From a bacterium (GTDB lineage Bacteria > Myxococcota_A > UBA9160 > UBA4427): a DNA stretch of 64,000 bases. Positions 9,632 to 16,466 of the stretch are shown here, in pieces (position 1 is the stretch's first letter; every line of letters starts with the position of its first letter). The stretch covers positions 558,001 through 622,000 of the forward strand of contig JANSYR010000001.1 in the NCBI GenBank assembly GCA_024742285.1, given 5' to 3'. The translations under genes and the position numbers were made by a program. The notes beneath the pieces are model-generated. The model saw only the letters and a list, made by a program, of their open reading frames with translations, made no database searches and was not told the DNA's origin.

Positions 9632-10861
9632 CTATCCGGGGCGCCCGTCGGGTCGGGGCATAGTGAGGATCGACCAATAGCGGACCGTGAACAGTCCGAA
9701 CGCGCAGGTCCAGGCCAGGGCGCTCGCCAGGAGCACCGCGCGGTGCTCCACGCCGGAGACGAACGGAGCGGCGACGCGCGTCAGCGCGGCCAGGTGGACG
9801 AGCACATAGCACCACACTACGCCTTCCGGCAGAACGAGAGGTCGCCCGGTATGACCGATGCCGACGCGGGTCATCACCGCAATGATCGTGCCCCCGATCG
9901 CACCGACCGTGAGCGCGTGGAGGCCGACCGTCGAAGGTATGGATACGCCCAGGTCGGATGCACCCGCGAGAAGAAGCCCGACGACGACCCATAGGGATCC
10001 CGCATGGAGGGACCACAGCAACGGATCCGAACGAGTCTGCCAGCTCTGCCAGCCCGCCATCCTGGCCAGCGCCGAGAGTCCGGCGATCACGCCGAGGATT
10101 CCCGTGGGCGAGGACCGGCCCAGGATCGAAGCCGACACGGCGGTTGCGACCGCGGATGCGATCGCCAACCGGTTCAGCCACAGCCAGCTCCGGACGACGA
10201 CCGTGCGCCCGCGCTGTCGAAGGGCGTTCTGCGTGAAGGCGGGCGTGATTCGTCCGCCAATCTCGAGGATCAGGATCACGAGCAGGTCGACGGCGAATCG
10301 CAGAGCGGTTCGGGCCAACCCCGGGGCGACCCCGAGAGCGTCGGCGTGTACGGCACCGTTCGCTCCTGCCAGCACCACGACGATTCCGACGACGCCGTAG
10401 TTGCGAACCTGCCCCGAGCCCCAGATCGTACGCAGGGCCGCGACAGCCACTGCGGGCAGGAAGGCGAAGTCGACGAGCGCGACCAGCCAGGCAGGGAGCA
10501 CGGTCGCAACCGCGAACACGACCCGCCCAGCCACCCAGAGGGCCAGCAACGCCGCGAGCGGTCGCCCCGTCAACGCGGGACCGCCCGTCCAAACCGGTGA
10601 GGCCGTCAACAGGAACCCGGCGATCGCCGCCGCCGCGAGTCCGAAGACCATCTCGTGACCATGCCACCACATCGGGGCCAGCCACGCTGGCGTCGGGGCG
10701 CCACCGGTCCACGCGACCACCCACCAGAGAATGGCGATCGATGCGTGGAGCCCCAGCACGAGGAAGAACGGCCGAAAGGCCCGACCCCAGAGGCCGAAGG
10801 GCTCGGACGAGGACGGGGCGAGCTCCTCGACGGCGAGGGCCGGCGCGGGAGGAAGACTCAC
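9632..10861 (-). CDS. nnrS: NnrS family haem/copper-type membrane protein
   Basis: 409 residues with about 12 hydrophobic segments. It opens with the family signature LWGRAFRPFFLVLGLHA and continues with WWHGHEMVFG (about 65-74), EIGGRITPAFTQN, HALTVGAIGG and MTRVGIGHTGRPL, all typical of NnrS. The His residues in these motifs are the presumed metal ligands. NnrS is linked to nitric-oxide resistance and is commonly in NsrR regulons. The GTG start overlaps the stop of the sirohaem reductase by four bases (10858-10861), so the two form one operon. A candidate NsrR operator lies ahead of the operon at 12726. Confidence 0.9.
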   Translation of the reverse strand: MSLPPAPALAVEELAPSSSEPFGLWGRAFRPFFLVLGLHASIAILWWVVAWTGGAPTPAWLAPMWWHGHEMVFGLAAAAIAGFLLTASPVWTGGPALTGRPLAALLALWVAGRVVFAVATVLPAWLVALVDFAFLPAVAVAALRTIWGSGQVRNYGVVGIVVVLAGANGAVHADALGVAPGLARTALRFAVDLLVILILEIGGRITPAFTQNALRQRGRTVVVRSWLWLNRLAIASAVATAVSASILGRSSPTGILGVIAGLSALARMAGWQSWQTRSDPLLWSLHAGSLWVVVGLLLAGASDLGVSIPSTVGLHALTVGAIGGTIIAVMTRVGIGHTGRPLVLPEGVVWCYVLVHLAALTRVAAPFVSGVEHRAVLLASALAWTCAFGLFTVRYWSILTMPRPDGRPG

Positions 10862-12663
10862 GCCGGACTCTCCCGCTTCGAAGCGAGCGTCCTCCCGGGC
10901 TCCGCCTTCTCCCCAGTCAGGAGGTCCCGTCTACCCGCTCCACGCCAACATCGTTCGTAGAAGTCCCCGAGTGCCTCCTTGGACTGCCGACGCTTGGCCC
11001 AGTCCTCGAGCAGCGGTCGCACCCGATCGACGAGCGCATCCTGCGGAACGCTCGCTGCATGGAGCGCACCCAGCCTCGTCCCTTCGAGCGTTCCGCCGAT
11101 GAACACGTCGTAGTGGCCCGGCTTGCGACCGACCAATCCGATGTCGGCGTTGTAGGGTCGCACGCAGCCGTTCGGACAACCGGTCATCCGCAGAGTGATC
11201 GGCGTGTCGTCGAGGCCGAGATCCGCGACGACGCGCTCGAACGCGAGACCTACATCCTCGGAAACGCGCTCGGATTCGGCCAGGGCGAGACCGCAGGTCG
11301 GCATCGCCGGACAAGCGAGCGAGTGGCGGCGAACGAAGCTCAGGCTCTCGGGCAGGGGGAGCGAGAAGGCGCGCAGAACCCGCTCGACTTGCGAAACCTG
11401 CTCTTCCGTCAGATTCGCGAGGAGAATGTTCTGCTGGGGCGTGAGGACGACCGAAGGACGCAGCGCTTCGACGAGCGTTCTCACCACGGTCTTCCAGCGA
11501 TGTCGCGCGTCATCGATGATCCGGCCGTTCGGAAGCCAGATCTCGTAGAGCCAGCGTCCGTCGCCCTGCTCGTGAGGCCCGAGCCAATCTCTATGCTGTA
11601 GCGGTGCCGTGTCGACCCAGGGCTGGAGTGGGAACGCCGCGCGGCGCTCGAACTCGTCGCGGAACACGTCGATCCCCCACTCCTCCACGACGTACTTCAA
11701 GCGAGCGTGGCGGCGATCGGTGCGATCGCCGAAGTCGCGATAGATGGACGCGATCGTCCGAACCGCTTCGACCAGGTGGCGGCGCTCGACGAAGCCGAGT
11801 GGCGTCGCCAGCCGGGCGTACGTCTCGGGCTTGCGATGGGTCAGACCCGATCCGCCGCCGACCAGGACGTTCGCGCCGCGCAGCTCGCCCGACGCCATGA
11901 TGCCGATCAGCCCGACGTCCTGGCCGTGGACATCCGTCGAGTTGTCTTCCGGAAGGGCGAGTCCGGTCTTGAACTTCCGAGGCAGGTACGTGACGCCGTA
12001 GAGGGGTTCGGTCTCGCGACTCGAGTCGATGCACTCGCCATCGAGCCAGATCTCGTGATAGGCGTTGGTCGCGGGGGTCATCGCCTCCGTCAGCTCCGCG
12101 GCCAGACCGTGGAGCGCTCGATAGCCGCCGCGAGCCAGCGGGGCGGGAGGCGCCACGATGTTGCGCTCCACGTCGCCGCATCCGCAGAGGGTCGAGATCA
12201 ACGCTTGGTTGACTCGCTGGATCGCCGTCTTTAGATCCCCCTTCAGCAACCCGTGGAGCTGGAAGTTCTGCCGTGTCGTGATGCGAAGCGAGCGGTTGTA
12301 GACGAGGTCTTCCGCCAGCTCGTCCAGTGCCAGGTACTGCTCGGCGGTCAGCTGGCCGCCGGGGATCTTCGTGCGGACCATGAAAGTGGGCTGGCGGTCC
12401 GCTCCGGTCAGCCGCGCCACGGAACGCGTGTCGCGATCTTCCTGCTGGTAGATTCCATGAAACTTCGCGACGCGCTGATCGAGCTCGGAGAGCCCGGGCT
12501 CGGCGTCCGCGAGGGACTCGCGAAGGCTGCCCCGGAGGTGGCGACTCGCGCCCTTCGTGCGCTCGACGCCGGACGGTGCGCCTTTCCGCGCGAGTGGAGC
12601 CGGAAGGGAGCCGCCGTACGAACGAGGCGCTCCCCGCGATCCGGGACGATCATCGTCGGCCAA
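10858..12663 (-). CDS. Sirohaem/4Fe-4S sulfite or nitrite reductase (CysI/NirA family)
   Basis: About 600 residues. Reads like the haemoprotein subunit of assimilatory sulfite reductase: GVERTKGASRHLRGSL, KFHGIYQQEDRD, a RITTRQNFQLHG block, then CGCGDVERN. The ligands for the iron-sulfur/sirohaem centre appear as CPAMPTCGLALAES followed later by TGCPNGC. It transfers six electrons to sulfite or nitrite in the cytoplasm. I chose the TTG at 12663 because GAGGGAG lies about 8 bases upstream; the longer frame starts at a GTG at 12723 with no ribosome site, three bases from a probable operator. The coupling to nnrS and nearby nsrR suggests a nitrite/NO role as much as sulfur assimilation. No flavoprotein partner is visible nearby. 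Confidence 0.85.
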   Translation of the reverse strand: MADDDRPGSRGAPRSYGGSLPAPLARKGAPSGVERTKGASRHLRGSLRESLADAEPGLSELDQRVAKFHGIYQQEDRDTRSVARLTGADRQPTFMVRTKIPGGQLTAEQYLALDELAEDLVYNRSLRITTRQNFQLHGLLKGDLKTAIQRVNQALISTLCGCGDVERNIVAPPAPLARGGYRALHGLAAELTEAMTPATNAYHEIWLDGECIDSSRETEPLYGVTYLPRKFKTGLALPEDNSTDVHGQDVGLIGIMASGELRGANVLVGGGSGLTHRKPETYARLATPLGFVERRHLVEAVRTIASIYRDFGDRTDRRHARLKYVVEEWGIDVFRDEFERRAAFPLQPWVDTAPLQHRDWLGPHEQGDGRWLYEIWLPNGRIIDDARHRWKTVVRTLVEALRPSVVLTPQQNILLANLTEEQVSQVERVLRAFSLPLPESLSFVRRHSLACPAMPTCGLALAESERVSEDVGLAFERVVADLGLDDTPITLRMTGCPNGCVRPYNADIGLVGRKPGHYDVFIGGTLEGTRLGALHAASVPQDALVDRVRPLLEDWAKRRQSKEALGDFYERCWRGAGRRDLLTGEKAEPGRTLASKRESPA

Positions 12664-12725
12664 GACTGACTCTCCCTCGCGCTCGGCGACCAGAACGGCG
12701 GCTTGCAGAGACGGGCGTCTCACAT

Positions 12726-12748
12726 AAGCTATATCCCGGATAGATCTT
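12726..12748. promoter_or_regulatory. Candidate NsrR-type operator in the divergent promoter
   Basis: Half-sites AAGCTATAT and ATAGATCTT are separated by CCCGG, a 9-5-9 arrangement. They match the recalled NsrR half-sites AAGATGCAT/ATGCATCTT at 6 and 7 of 9 positions. The centre contains a perfect TATCC-C-GGATA. The site lies between the reductase/nnrS operon (minus) and the cyclodeaminase-like gene (plus) and could control both. Confidence 0.5.
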
Positions 12749-12790
12749 TACCATACACCCCCTGTGTCGCAAGGGATCGAGCTGTACATC

Positions 12791-13579
12791 ATGGAGACCC
12801 CGCCTCGAGACGCTGCCGAGGAGATCCGACGGCGCTGCATCGACGCCGCACGGAGCGGCTACGAAGACGCGCTGATGAGCGGACTCTGCCGAGAGGGCGC
12901 GTGGGAGGCGGCCGTGAGCGCGATCCAGCGACTCGATCTCGAACGCGTCAGCGACGACGCGAGCGCGGCCGGTACGCCGACAGACGATGCGTCGAGCAAT
13001 CGGGAGCTGGCCGAGCACTGCATCGACCTGGCTCGGAGGTTCACGCGCGCCGGGCCACCGGCAGCGGGCAGTGCGGCTGCGGTCACCGGCGCGATCGCAG
13101 CGGGCCTGCTGGAATGGGCGGCGGGCGCTACGGAAGGCCGTGGACAGGAGGCGTTCCGCTCCCGGGCGGGGAGAATCAGGGGCCGTGCTGCGGCACTCGC
13201 AGCTTCCCTTGCGTCGGCCGCACAGGAGGATGCCTCCGTGGTCGGGAGCCTCGTCGAATCGCGCGACCGCGCCGATCCTCGATCGGTGCTCCTCGACGCG
13301 ACCGAGTCCGTGCTCGAGGTCGCAACAGGCTGCTCCCAGGTAGCGACGCTCGTCGCCGAGCTCACCCCTCATGCCCAACGGACGTTCCGTCCCGATCTGG
13401 AGGTGGCGCTACGGCTGGCCTGCAGCGCGAGTCAGAGCGCACTCGACTTGTTCGAAACGAATCGTCCAGGCGACGAGGAAGGATCCGAATGGCTCCTGAG
13501 CGCGAAACGACGAGCGTGGAGAGTTCGTCTCCTGCTCCGTCGAGCCGCCGTCGGCATCCGCTCCTCGGACTGGGAGTAG
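12791..13579 (+). CDS. Cyclodeaminase/cyclohydrolase-like (FTCD_C-fold) protein
   Basis: About 262 residues. The first ~45 residues form a helical segment (RRRCIDAARSGYEDALMSGL, then WEAAVSAIQRLD) that I cannot place. From about residue 75 the protein looks like the formiminotransferase-cyclodeaminase C-terminal fold: RAGPPAAGSAAAVTGAIAAG corresponds to the Gly-rich helix start, followed by a helical bundle with AAQEDASVVGSLVES and FRPDLEVALRLACSASQSAL near the end. The ATG at 12791 is preferred; a GTG at 12764 gives nine more residues. It is divergent from the nnrS operon across a shared candidate NsrR site. The substrate is unknown and a folate role is not proven. Confidence 0.55.
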   Translation: METPPRDAAEEIRRRCIDAARSGYEDALMSGLCREGAWEAAVSAIQRLDLERVSDDASAAGTPTDDASSNRELAEHCIDLARRFTRAGPPAAGSAAAVTGAIAAGLLEWAAGATEGRGQEAFRSRAGRIRGRAAALAASLASAAQEDASVVGSLVESRDRADPRSVLLDATESVLEVATGCSQVATLVAELTPHAQRTFRPDLEVALRLACSASQSALDLFETNRPGDEEGSEWLLSAKRRAWRVRLLLRRAAVGIRSSDWE

Positions 13580-13624
13580 CGATCTCTCCGACAAGACACC
13601 GGACGAACTGGGATTCCGCCAGTG

Positions 13625-14068
13625 TCAGATCGCCGACGCGTCCGATGGCCCTTCGATCCGAGCCTCGCATTTTGCGCAAGCACTCGGCTGAGACTCGTCC
13701 CAGCCTGGTCGGCCCTGCGTCCATCGCCCGCAGCTCGAGCACTTCCGCGCACGCGCGTGGTCTTTGTCGAGCACGTATTCACCGAAGCAGCCTTCGGTGC
13801 ACCACTTTCGAAAGCCCGGCATCAGGACTTTCTTGTGGAACTCGTTCTCGACCCAGCGCGTGACCGCGTCGGCGTGGGTCCAGAGCGTCGAGAACTGGTA
13901 CCGGCGCCCGGGTCGAGCCCAGAGGACCGCCTGGAGGCAGCCTTCGACGCCTCGGGTTTCGTCGAGCGTTCGGTCCCGATGGCGAAGGAACTCGGCCTCG
14001 CCCTCGGGCGTAAAGACGAACTCGGCGAGAACGAGGAGGGGAGCCTCGTTCGGTGCAGGGTCACTCAT
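13625..14068 (-). CDS. Antibiotic-biosynthesis-monooxygenase-like (ABM) domain with C-terminal zinc ribbon
   Basis: 147 residues. The first ~95 form a dimeric alpha/beta-barrel of the ABM type: LLVLAEFVFTPEGEAEFLRH, then TRGVEGCLQAVLW, FSTLWTHADAVTRWVENEFH. The tail has paired cysteines CSSC and CAKC spaced by about 20 residues, a likely zinc ribbon that is unusual on this fold. It follows nsrR by 42 bases on the same strand, so it is probably co-transcribed and NO-responsive. Some ABM proteins bind or degrade haem or quinones; the substrate here is not known. Confidence 0.65.
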   Translation of the reverse strand: MSDPAPNEAPLLVLAEFVFTPEGEAEFLRHRDRTLDETRGVEGCLQAVLWARPGRRYQFSTLWTHADAVTRWVENEFHKKVLMPGFRKWCTEGCFGEYVLDKDHARARKCSSCGRWTQGRPGWDESQPSACAKCEARIEGPSDASAI

Positions 14069-14110
14069 GTCGGCGATTCTCCGTTTCGCAGGCGCACCGC
14101 GCGCCTCCCG

Positions 14111-14548
14111 TCACGAGGGCGTCAGCAGACGAACGAGCGTCCGCTTCCGCCGGGCCACGAGATCGGCGAGGGTGTATCGATCGAGGGTCTCGAGGAAGGC
14201 ATCGAGCGCCTCCGCGAGGACGCCCTTCAGCGTGCACGCCGACTCGAGCCGGCAGGTATTCGTGTCTGGATCGAAGCACTCGACGAGGTCCAGGCTCCCT
14301 TCCGCGTGCCGAACGACCTCCCCGACGCCAATCTCGTCGGGGCGCCTCGCGAGCCGAAGCCCCCCGCCGCGCCCACGCACCGTCTCGAGGTAGCCCGCAC
14401 GTCCCAGCTCGTGCACGACCTTCGTGAGGTGGGCCTTCGAGATGTCGTAGGCCTTCGCGATCTCGTCGATCGTCGCCAGATGGTCCGTGTGGACACCCAG
14501 GTACATCAACACGCGCAAGCTGTAGTCGCTGTATCGAGTGAGTCGCAT
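14111..14548 (-). CDS. nsrR: Rrf2-family NO sensor repressor
   Basis: 145 residues, the normal length. The N-terminal winged helix MRLTRYSDYSLRVLMYLGVH is typical, followed by ISKAHLTKVVHELGRAGYL (recognition helix and wing) and GRGGGLRLAR. Cluster cysteines are C91, C99 and C105, within ECFDPDTNTC and SACTLKGVL, as in NsrR rather than IscR. The C-terminal FLETLDRYTLADL is also NsrR-like. NsrR binds a 2Fe-2S or 4Fe-4S cluster, and NO releases it from DNA. A near-consensus operator sits 8-30 bases before the start, implying autoregulation. Confidence 0.88.
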   Translation of the reverse strand: MRLTRYSDYSLRVLMYLGVHTDHLATIDEIAKAYDISKAHLTKVVHELGRAGYLETVRGRGGGLRLARRPDEIGVGEVVRHAEGSLDLVECFDPDTNTCRLESACTLKGVLAEALDAFLETLDRYTLADLVARRKRTLVRLLTPS

Positions 14549-14555
14549 CGACGAA

Positions 14556-14578
14556 AAGATGCATCAAATATCCATGTT
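14556..14578. promoter_or_regulatory. NsrR operator upstream of nsrR
   Basis: Half-sites AAGATGCAT (14556-14564) and ATCCATGTT (14570-14578) with a 5-base spacer. The first half matches the recalled NsrR consensus at all 9 positions and the second at 7 of 9. The position just before the nsrR start codon fits autorepression. Confidence 0.65.
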
Positions 14579-14747
14579 CATGCAAACGCGGCCCCTGCCG
14601 ATTCGATTCCGGGGGCTGCGCGGCCCCCTCAACCGCTTCACCCGTCACCGCGCAGACCCCTTCCAGGGATTCCCCGACGTGCTTCCCCGCCGACATCGCG
14701 AGACGATCTCCGAGAAGGCCGCGGAACGTCGCCAGGAACGAGGAGAA

Positions 14748-15089
14748 CTACGCCGGCTGCGTCCGCGGCTCGACGCCGTGCTCGGCGTGACTCGTTCCGA
14801 GTGCGCGAAGGTCGGCCTCCAGCCATGGCTCTCCGGCGCAATGTGCGAGCCATGACTTCCGGGTTTCCTGAATCGTCTCCTCGCGCTCCGAGAGCGCGTA
14901 CTCGCCGACGAGCGGCACGATGTGCGGGTAGCGCTCCATGAAGCAACCGTGGAATCGCTCGACTGACGTCGAGCGGCTGTGACTCGCGACGCCGAGTCCG
15001 AGCACTGCCGCGGCAATACCCAGACCTCTCTCGGCCGCCTGACGGATGACTTCGTCTTCGAGCTCAGGCCAGACCTGCCTCTGGCTCAT
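14748..15089 (-). CDS. Possible globin-like protein, apparently shortened by an in-frame TAG
   Basis: 113 residues from the ATG at 15089 (GGAAG seven bases upstream). Features suggest a divergent single-domain globin: FHGCFMERYPHIVPLV in the C/D region and WLEADLRALGTSHAEHGV, where His would be the proximal ligand of helix F. After the TAG (14748-14750) the same frame continues with FSSFLATFRGLLGD and an SLEGVCAV segment that resemble globin helices G and H. That suggests a premature stop, or a readthrough product. It lies upstream of nsrR on the same strand. The family call is tentative and the frame could be a hypothetical protein. Confidence 0.35.
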   Translation of the reverse strand: MSQRQVWPELEDEVIRQAAERGLGIAAAVLGLGVASHSRSTSVERFHGCFMERYPHIVPLVGEYALSEREETIQETRKSWLAHCAGEPWLEADLRALGTSHAEHGVEPRTQPA

Positions 15090-15217: not shown

Positions 15218-15248
15218 TTTATCGAGTTTATCCGAATTCGATAAACTC
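15218..15248. promoter_or_regulatory. Inverted-repeat operator ahead of the AAA/SEC-C pair
   Basis: GAGTTTATC (15224-15232) and GATAAACTC (15240-15248) are perfect inverted copies around CGAATTC. An overlapping pair TTTATCGA (15218-15225) and TCGATAAA (15238-15245) is also perfect. This AT-rich block stands out in GC-rich surroundings and lies 28 bases before the ATPase start, so a repressor site is likely. Confidence 0.6.
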
Positions 15249-15275: not shown

Positions 15276-16466
15276 ATGGACCCTGTCTCGAATCCGTTCG
15301 CCCCTGGCGCAGGCACGCCGCCGCCCGAACTCGCGGGTCGGGACGACGTTCGCGAGGCGGTTCGAATCGCGCTGGAGCGGGTCCGTCGCGGACGCTCGAC
15401 GAAGAGCGTCTTGATGGTTGGACTCCGAGGAGTCGGGAAGACCGTCCTGCTCGACCGGATGCGCGACGACGCCGAGGCGGACGGCATCCACACGGTCCGG
15501 CTCGAAGCGCCGGAATCCCGCTCGCTCCCCGCCCTCCTCGCCCCGGAGCTCCGGCAAGCCCTCCTGCGACTCTCCAGGCTGGAACGTGCCAAGACTCTCG
15601 CAGAGCGGGCGCTTCGCGCGCTCGCCGGCTTCGCCAAGGCGCTCAAGGTCAAGTACGACGACATCGAGGTGGGCCTCGACTTCGAGCCCGAGCCGGGCCT
15701 CGCCGACAACGGCGACCTCGAACGCGACCTTCAGGTCCTGATCGAGGCCGCCGGCGAGGCCGCGAAATCCGGCGACACGGCGCTGGCCATCTTCATCGAC
15801 GAGCTCCAGTACGTCGAGGAGGAGCAGCTCGCCGCCCTGATCACGGCACTCCATCGCGCCGCCCAGCGACGACTCCCCATCGTGCTCGTCGGCGCGGGCC
15901 TCCCACAGCTTCGGGGTCGCATGGGTCGGGCGAAGTCCTACGCGGAACGACTCTTCGACTTCCCCGAGATCGGACCGCTCGACGAAGAAGCCGCGAGCGC
16001 AGCACTCTCTAGGCCGGCCGAAGCCGAGGGCGCCGCGTTCGAGCCGGAAGCGCTCGACGCGGTTCTGGGGAAGACGCGGGGCTACCCGTACTTCCTCCAG
16101 GAGTGGGGGAAGCATTCCTGGGATGCCGCGGACGAGTCCCCCATCACCGCAACGGACGTGGAGCAGGCATCGACGACCACGATCGCGGCACTCGACGAGA
16201 GCTTCTTTCGCGTGCGCTTCGATCGCCTCACGCCGAGCGAGAAGAGGTACCTCCGTGCCATGGCGGAGCTCGGCCCCGGCCCGCACCGCTCGGGCGACAT
16301 CGCAAACGAGCTCGGACGACAGGTCACGTCGCTCGGCCCTACTCGGGGCAAGCTGATCTCGAAGGGCATGATCTGGAGCCCGAGCCACGGAGATACGGCC
16401 TTCACCGTCCCCCTCTTCGACGAGTTCATGCGGCGCATCATGCCGGGCGACGATTGGCGGGAATGA
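15276..16466 (+). CDS. AAA ATPase (Orc1/Cdc6-like) with C-terminal winged helix
   Basis: 396 residues. ELAGRDDVREAVR opens the module. Walker A is GLRGVGKT (49-56) and Walker B is AIFIDELQ (171-178). A sensor-type GAGLPQLRG lies near 206-214 and GYPYFLQEWG near 272-281, as in the ATPase_2/Orc1-type family. From about 312 there is a winged helix: LTPSEKRYLRAMAELG, then SGDIANEL and RGKLISKGMIW. The gene overlaps the SEC-C gene by ATGA, so both are made together. The wing could bind the inverted repeat ahead of the operon. Possible roles are regulation, mobile-element control or defence; the target is unknown. Confidence 0.8.
   Translation: MDPVSNPFAPGAGTPPPELAGRDDVREAVRIALERVRRGRSTKSVLMVGLRGVGKTVLLDRMRDDAEADGIHTVRLEAPESRSLPALLAPELRQALLRLSRLERAKTLAERALRALAGFAKALKVKYDDIEVGLDFEPEPGLADNGDLERDLQVLIEAAGEAAKSGDTALAIFIDELQYVEEEQLAALITALHRAAQRRLPIVLVGAGLPQLRGRMGRAKSYAERLFDFPEIGPLDEEAASAALSRPAEAEGAAFEPEALDAVLGKTRGYPYFLQEWGKHSWDAADESPITATDVEQASTTTIAALDESFFRVRFDRLTPSEKRYLRAMAELGPGPHRSGDIANELGRQVTSLGPTRGKLISKGMIWSPSHGDTAFTVPLFDEFMRRIMPGDDWRE

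Follow-up and report, generated by a model that had tools for sequence, protein, structure and literature searches.

Regulons of NsrR have been described in gamma- and beta-proteobacteria and in Bacillus (Rodionov et al. 2005, PMC1274295). They are built on an Rrf2-family repressor and a palindrome with a five-base centre, for which the site gATGyAT-N5-ATrCATc was published. Their usual targets are hmp, hcp and dnrN (ytfE), and nnrS is also a conserved and usual target. The NsrR of Streptomyces coelicolor (PDB 5n07) uses three cysteines (93, 99 and 105) and Asp8 as cluster ligands, has Arg12, binds a 23-bp operator and controls hmpA1, hmpA2 and nsrR. Sirohaem enzymes have also been connected with the response to nitric oxide (NO). 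NirBD was called detoxifying (PMC1274295), and in A. fumigatus sirohaem matters for NO resistance, which was ascribed to nitrite reductase (PMC6240589). A sulfite/nitrite reductase of the CysI type is not usually counted in NO defence. Here, we analysed a window of 64,000 nucleotides (C1:558001-622000, G+C 63%) from a bacterial genome of 6.55 Mb in 56 contigs, referred to as G000. As judged from its sequence, the gene pair nsrR-abm and the operon sir-nnrS in this window quite probably form one small NsrR-type regulon with a proposed response to NO. The genes and sites are as follows, with P0005, P0002 and P0003 as the products of nsrR, sir and the FTCD_C-like gene.

nsrR, 14111-14548, minus strand: Rrf2-family repressor of 145 residues with C91, C99, C105, D8 and R12
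abm, 13625-14068, minus strand: ABM domain (about residues 1-100) followed by a zinc-ribbon-like CxxC...CxxC tail at the C terminus; comes second in the nsrR operon, after a gap of 42 bases
FTCD_C-like gene, 12791-13579, plus strand: divergent from sir, between abm and sir; alternative start GTG 12764
sir, 10858 to about 12663, minus strand: CysI-type sirohaem/4Fe-4S reductase, aligned over its whole length to E. coli SiRHP
nnrS, 9632-10861, minus strand: shares 4 bases with the end of sir, as in an operon
operator 1, 14556-14578: AAGATGCAT-CAAAT-ATCCATGTT, predicted autoregulatory site before nsrR-abm
operator 2, 12726-12748: AAGCTATAT-CCCGG-ATAGATCTT, in the promoter region between sir-nnrS and the divergent FTCD_C-like gene

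The locus has the repressor family, the five-base centre of the palindrome and nnrS in common with the regulons of Rodionov et al., and the geometry of its sites agrees with the published one. In contrast, instead of the usual hmp, hcp and dnrN the locus has a sirohaem reductase of the CysI type and an ABM/zinc-ribbon protein, and half sites in this clade are nearer to GATnTAT than to GATGYAT. The three cysteines, Asp8, Arg12 and the 23-bp operator are shared with the S. coelicolor system, whereas the cysteines are at 91, 99 and 105 and the targets are different. In the part of the open-access literature that was searched, no description of an NsrR-controlled CysI-type reductase or of an nsrR-ABM pair was found.

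The two operators and their conservation

An earlier note on this DNA had claimed a repressor with C91, C99 and C105, a 9-5-9 site with one perfect half before its gene and a second 9-5-9 site between sir-nnrS and the FTCD_C-like gene. All three were recovered. The cysteines named are the only ones in the protein, and both sites consist of nine-base halves around a five-base centre. Operator 1 lies 7 bases before the nsrR ATG and is the one place in the window with an exact AAGATGCAT half.

The sites were compared with AAGATGCAT-N5-ATGCATCTT, the enterobacterial NsrR consensus. Operators 1 and 2 match it at 16 and 13 of 18 positions, respectively, and are the two best places in the window. With up to three mismatches, operator 1 is its sole place in the whole genome. 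By chance, 64 kb should hold 0.63 places that match at 13/18, and operator 2 alone is therefore unconvincing by this consensus. As a yardstick for operator 2 the consensus was too weak, and a clade weight matrix was used instead. The matrix was trained on the sites upstream of nsrR in nine relatives, and the window's own sites and those of G003, G042 and G052 were left out. For training, the place most similar to the enterobacterial consensus was taken from the 200 bases preceding nsrR, and the scores of the training sites themselves (17.7 to 27.8 bits in leave-one-out scoring) are therefore not independent.

With the clade matrix, operator 2 scored 28.1 bits and operator 1 scored 20.7 bits, and the third best place in the window reached 12.7 bits. 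The observed score was reached by none of 2000 column-permuted matrices for operator 2 and by two of 2000 for operator 1. In 1.13 Mb around unrelated sulfite reductases, no place scored at least 28.1 bits and one scored at least 20.7 bits, and in other loci of the relatives, 0.39 Mb in all, the top score was 14.3 bits. Most of the relatives have a similar palindrome upstream of nsrR, with the lineage form AAGATnTAT-N5-ATAnATCTT. Operator 2 differs from the pattern AAGATNTAT-N5-ATANATCTT at one position and is its best match in all 6.55 Mb. When up to three mismatches are allowed, the genome has three places with the lineage pattern, namely the two operators and C1:180624 (17.2 bits, L176), and none with the reversed pattern, used as a control. 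The regions of the other three Rrf2 genes of this genome that pass the family cut-off hold nothing above 11.0 bits.

The conservation of the sites upstream of orthologues had been set as the test by the earlier note. Seventy-nine genomes were searched, G000 included. Orthologues of nsrR were found in 12 relatives with 56-77% identity, and a second Rrf2 protein of G008 (L080, 43% identity) was not counted as one. Two class-level orthologues, in G084 and G087, are outside these 12. A site of at least 20 bits stands beside nsrR in 10 of the 12 relatives. Nine of these belong to the training set, and the tenth, G003, is an independent test with a site of 24.0 bits between sir and nsrR. Further sites outside the training set were found before nnrS in G061 (24.0 bits) and G008 (29.4 bits), before abm-sir-nnrS in G012 (25.9 bits) and before abm in G066 (21.6 bits). 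For the sir unit, the site was conserved in both relatives with a close sir. At two mismatches or fewer, 7 of the 13 nsrR-carrying genomes and 5 of the 66 that lack nsrR contain the lineage pattern (Fisher p 0.0003), although this test is partly circular.

The sirohaem reductase and its partner genes

The NIR_SIR domain of P0002 scored 148 bits. The protein passes the NCBIfam model NF010029 for the sulfite reductase haemoprotein (631 bits, cut-off 457) and misses the cut-off of the CysI model TIGR02041 (510 versus 757). The C-x5-C and CPNGC motifs, which carry the sirohaem/4Fe-4S cysteines, are kept in all three sir orthologues and align with E. coli SiRHP. The likely start of sir is TTG 12663, which follows GAGGGAGAG, rather than GTG 12723, which is 2 bases from operator 2. 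According to our own reading of the starts, the operator lies about 60-70 bases before the likely sir start in the window and in G003 alike.

Close sir orthologues (66-79% identity) are present only in G003 and G012 among the genomes searched, and in both genomes sir adjoins nsrR behind such a site. In G003, sir is divergent from nsrR with one site between them. Since no nnrS match was found anywhere in the G003 genome, the site there serves sir and nsrR. In G012, sir is downstream of abm and is followed by nnrS, and the three genes form one unit without the FTCD_C-like gene. The gene order thus differs across the three genomes, and the site stays with sir. This arrangement beside nsrR, in orders unlike that of the window, points to one NsrR-type regulon.

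P0002 shares with CysI (PDB 6c3m) the homology over the whole length, the cysteines of the sirohaem/4Fe-4S centre and the lysine pair of YLPRKFK. In contrast to CysI, sir has an NsrR-type operator and no sulfate-assimilation gene among its neighbours at the locus. A CysJ flavoprotein gene was not among the genes adjoining sir in the window, where no dedicated search for a CysJ partner was made. The genome encodes two further NIR_SIR proteins, and P0002 as its only sulfite reductase is ruled out by them. One is a NirA-type reductase on C13 beside DUF934 and a PALP (cysteine-synthase-type) gene, and it looks like the housekeeping sulfite reductase. The other, on C3, joins pyridine-nucleotide reductase, BFD, NIR_SIR and Rieske parts in one protein and looks like NirB/D. 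P0002 resembles NirBD as a sirohaem enzyme proposed to remove nitrite, and it differs in having no pyridine-nucleotide reductase, BFD or Rieske parts. Because these separate NirA-type and NirB/D-type enzymes exist, P0002 would be a third sirohaem reductase, belonging to the NO regulon, and it is probably not the housekeeping sulfite reductase of the genome. A PAPS/APS reductase gene is found on C4 (L177), and LuxC-, LuxE- and luciferase-like genes and another Rrf2 gene are near it.

The product of nnrS matches PF05940 with 354 bits (cut-off 28). The abm product matches PF03992 with 28.3 bits (cut-off 23.1). Its tail cysteines C110, C113, C131 and C134 are invariant in all seven proteins from seven genomes, and many residues of the ABM part are invariant too. 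The model of the protein (mean pLDDT 80) matches structures of the ABM fold, with a Foldseek TM score of 0.78 by target length to 3fgv. The gene adjoins nsrR in 6 of the 12 relatives, and in two of them (G012 and G066) it has a site of its own.

The proposed regulon and its alternatives

In the proposed mechanism, the repressor with an intact Fe-S cluster would sit on operator 1 and keep nsrR-abm off, and on operator 2 it would keep sir-nnrS off. It would be released by NO or by a different agent harmful to the cluster. The operators, their conservation, the gene order and the ligand residues were observed here, and the binding and the effector are inferred. The reductase next to NnrS would most likely be an inducible sirohaem enzyme that, under NO stress, turns nitrite or further nitrogen oxides into ammonia. 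Its likely role would be to remove nitrite or nitrogen oxides related to it. As a second choice, it could take over the reduction of sulfite once the housekeeping enzyme has been damaged by NO. We put forward tentatively, and with more doubt than belief, the wider proposal that a CysI-type sulfite reductase was captured by the NsrR regulon as an NO-inducible nitrite/NO sirohaem reductase, together with the conserved, nsrR-linked ABM/zinc-ribbon protein as an unrecognised nitrosative-stress factor. If this is true, an enzyme type of sulfur assimilation has moved into the NO response, and sirohaem enzymes would have a testable role in the detoxification of NO or nitrite. The nsrR-abm pair, present in 7 of the 13 nsrR genomes with the window's included, would gain a place in nitrosative stress. 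The operator motif could also be used for mapping the NsrR regulon across a class of little-studied genomes.

Several results weigh against these proposals. The sites beside nsrR are weak in G042 (11.8 bits) and G052 (12.1 bits). Of the orthologues that are more distant, the one in G084 has a site of 15.4 bits and the one in G087 has none. The link with sir is confined to the three genomes that carry this sir beside nsrR, and the conservation of the sir site therefore comes from two relatives. Outside the clade, the nearest SIRs (about 40-52% identity) are from Phycisphaeraceae, Thermoanaerobaculia and others, and no nnrS or abm neighbour was found in the fetched stretches around the 80 nearest. 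For nnrS, 30 loci and then eight more were tested, the other matches being fragments or not fetched. Among the 30 loci, nsrR-positive and nsrR-negative genomes did not differ significantly in their sites (p 0.22). A general rule that nnrS has a site wherever nsrR is present was not supported, since none of the six nnrS copies tested away from nsrR in nsrR-positive relatives has one. A scan of both operator regions found no sigma-70-like promoter. Finally, P0005 reaches neither the NCBIfam cut-off for NsrR (126.9 bits versus 182) nor that for RirA (141 bits versus 193), and the RirA score is slightly the higher of the two.

The claim of a single regulon in the earlier note stands in part. An NsrR-type regulon with two operators of the same geometry is supported, and abm and sir are included by conservation, whereas the FTCD_C-like gene is not. 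The gene nnrS, which that note put into the operon, belongs to the usual NsrR targets (PMC1274295). P0003 matches PF04961 with 46.2 bits (cut-off 24.5). Its model, built without an alignment, is all-helical with a mean pLDDT of 53.6 and is too poor for a structure search. The G+C of its codon positions is less marked than in the neighbouring genes. We lean towards the explanation that operator 2 serves sir-nnrS only and that the FTCD_C-like gene was inserted recently and has nothing to do with NO. No relative of P0003 was found in the 78 other genomes or in a phylum sample of 377 genomes (up to 6 candidates per genome scored), and the abm-sir-nnrS unit of G012 is complete without it. On the other hand, operator 2 lies 42 bases before the likely ATG of this gene (15 before the GTG). 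With the operator so close to the start, the bound repressor could shut both promoters, and the gene may share operator 2 and be a member of the regulon through its position and the shared promoter.

It is rather improbable that P0005 is RirA-like, or is a different Rrf2 regulator with an Fe-S cluster, and senses iron or the redox state instead of NO, with the same sites and targets. The model scores given above favour it, and the three cysteines are common to IscR, NsrR and RirA (PMC5863699). However, the cluster network of NsrR consists of Asp8, Arg12 and the three cysteines (PMC5411485), whereas RirA has no Asp8 and has an extra N-terminal cysteine (PMC5863699). P0005, which is a clear Rrf2 protein (PF02082 137 bits, cut-off 30), lacks this cysteine and has Asp8. 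Among the 13 orthologues, the three cysteines of the cluster region and Arg12 are present in all, and Asp8 is present in 12 and is a Glu in G036. The closest solved structure to P0005 is the S. coelicolor NsrR, and the operator geometry and nnrS are of the NsrR type (PMC1274295). Asp8, the lack of the N-terminal cysteine and the type of operator speak against RirA itself, and it was rejected. The NCBIfam equivalog cut-off for NsrR may be narrower than the functional family.

That operator 2 arose by chance, as an AT-rich palindrome at a promoter, is very hard to believe: its 13/18 match to the classical consensus and the AT-rich flanks of promoters would allow it, but the two operators rank first and second among the 5032 low-GC 23-mers of the window (28.1 and 20.7 versus 12.7 bits for the third), and equivalent sites stand before the sir units of G003 and G012.

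Further sites and neighbouring genes

Some NsrR-like sites were seen at other loci of the relatives. A 26-bit site in G034 (L254:1510-1532) is about 21 kb from nsrR, before an open reading frame (ORF) that has no Pfam match and close to an ORF of the Rnk/GreA type. Sites were also found before an OsmC-like gene in G034 (L070:12925-12947, 19.3 bits) and before a carboxymuconolactone-decarboxylase-like gene in G036 (L077:3983-4005, 21.3 bits), and from these sites the two genes are possible further members of the regulon. The class-level nsrR orthologues adjoin genes of haem-copper oxidases, with COX2, COX1 and SCO in G087 (L175) and COX1 and cytochrome c in G084 (L174). These oxidases are possibly enzymes of the NO-reductase type.

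In the window, a short ORF at 14748-15089 lies 5' of nsrR on the same strand. Its codon positions are coding-like, and it has no Pfam or NCBIfam match. A perfect 9-7-9 inverted repeat, GAGTTTATC/GATAAACTC, is located at 15224-15248, where the sequence is AT-rich, immediately upstream of an ATPase-like gene (15276-16466, plus strand), and it looks like an operator of that gene.

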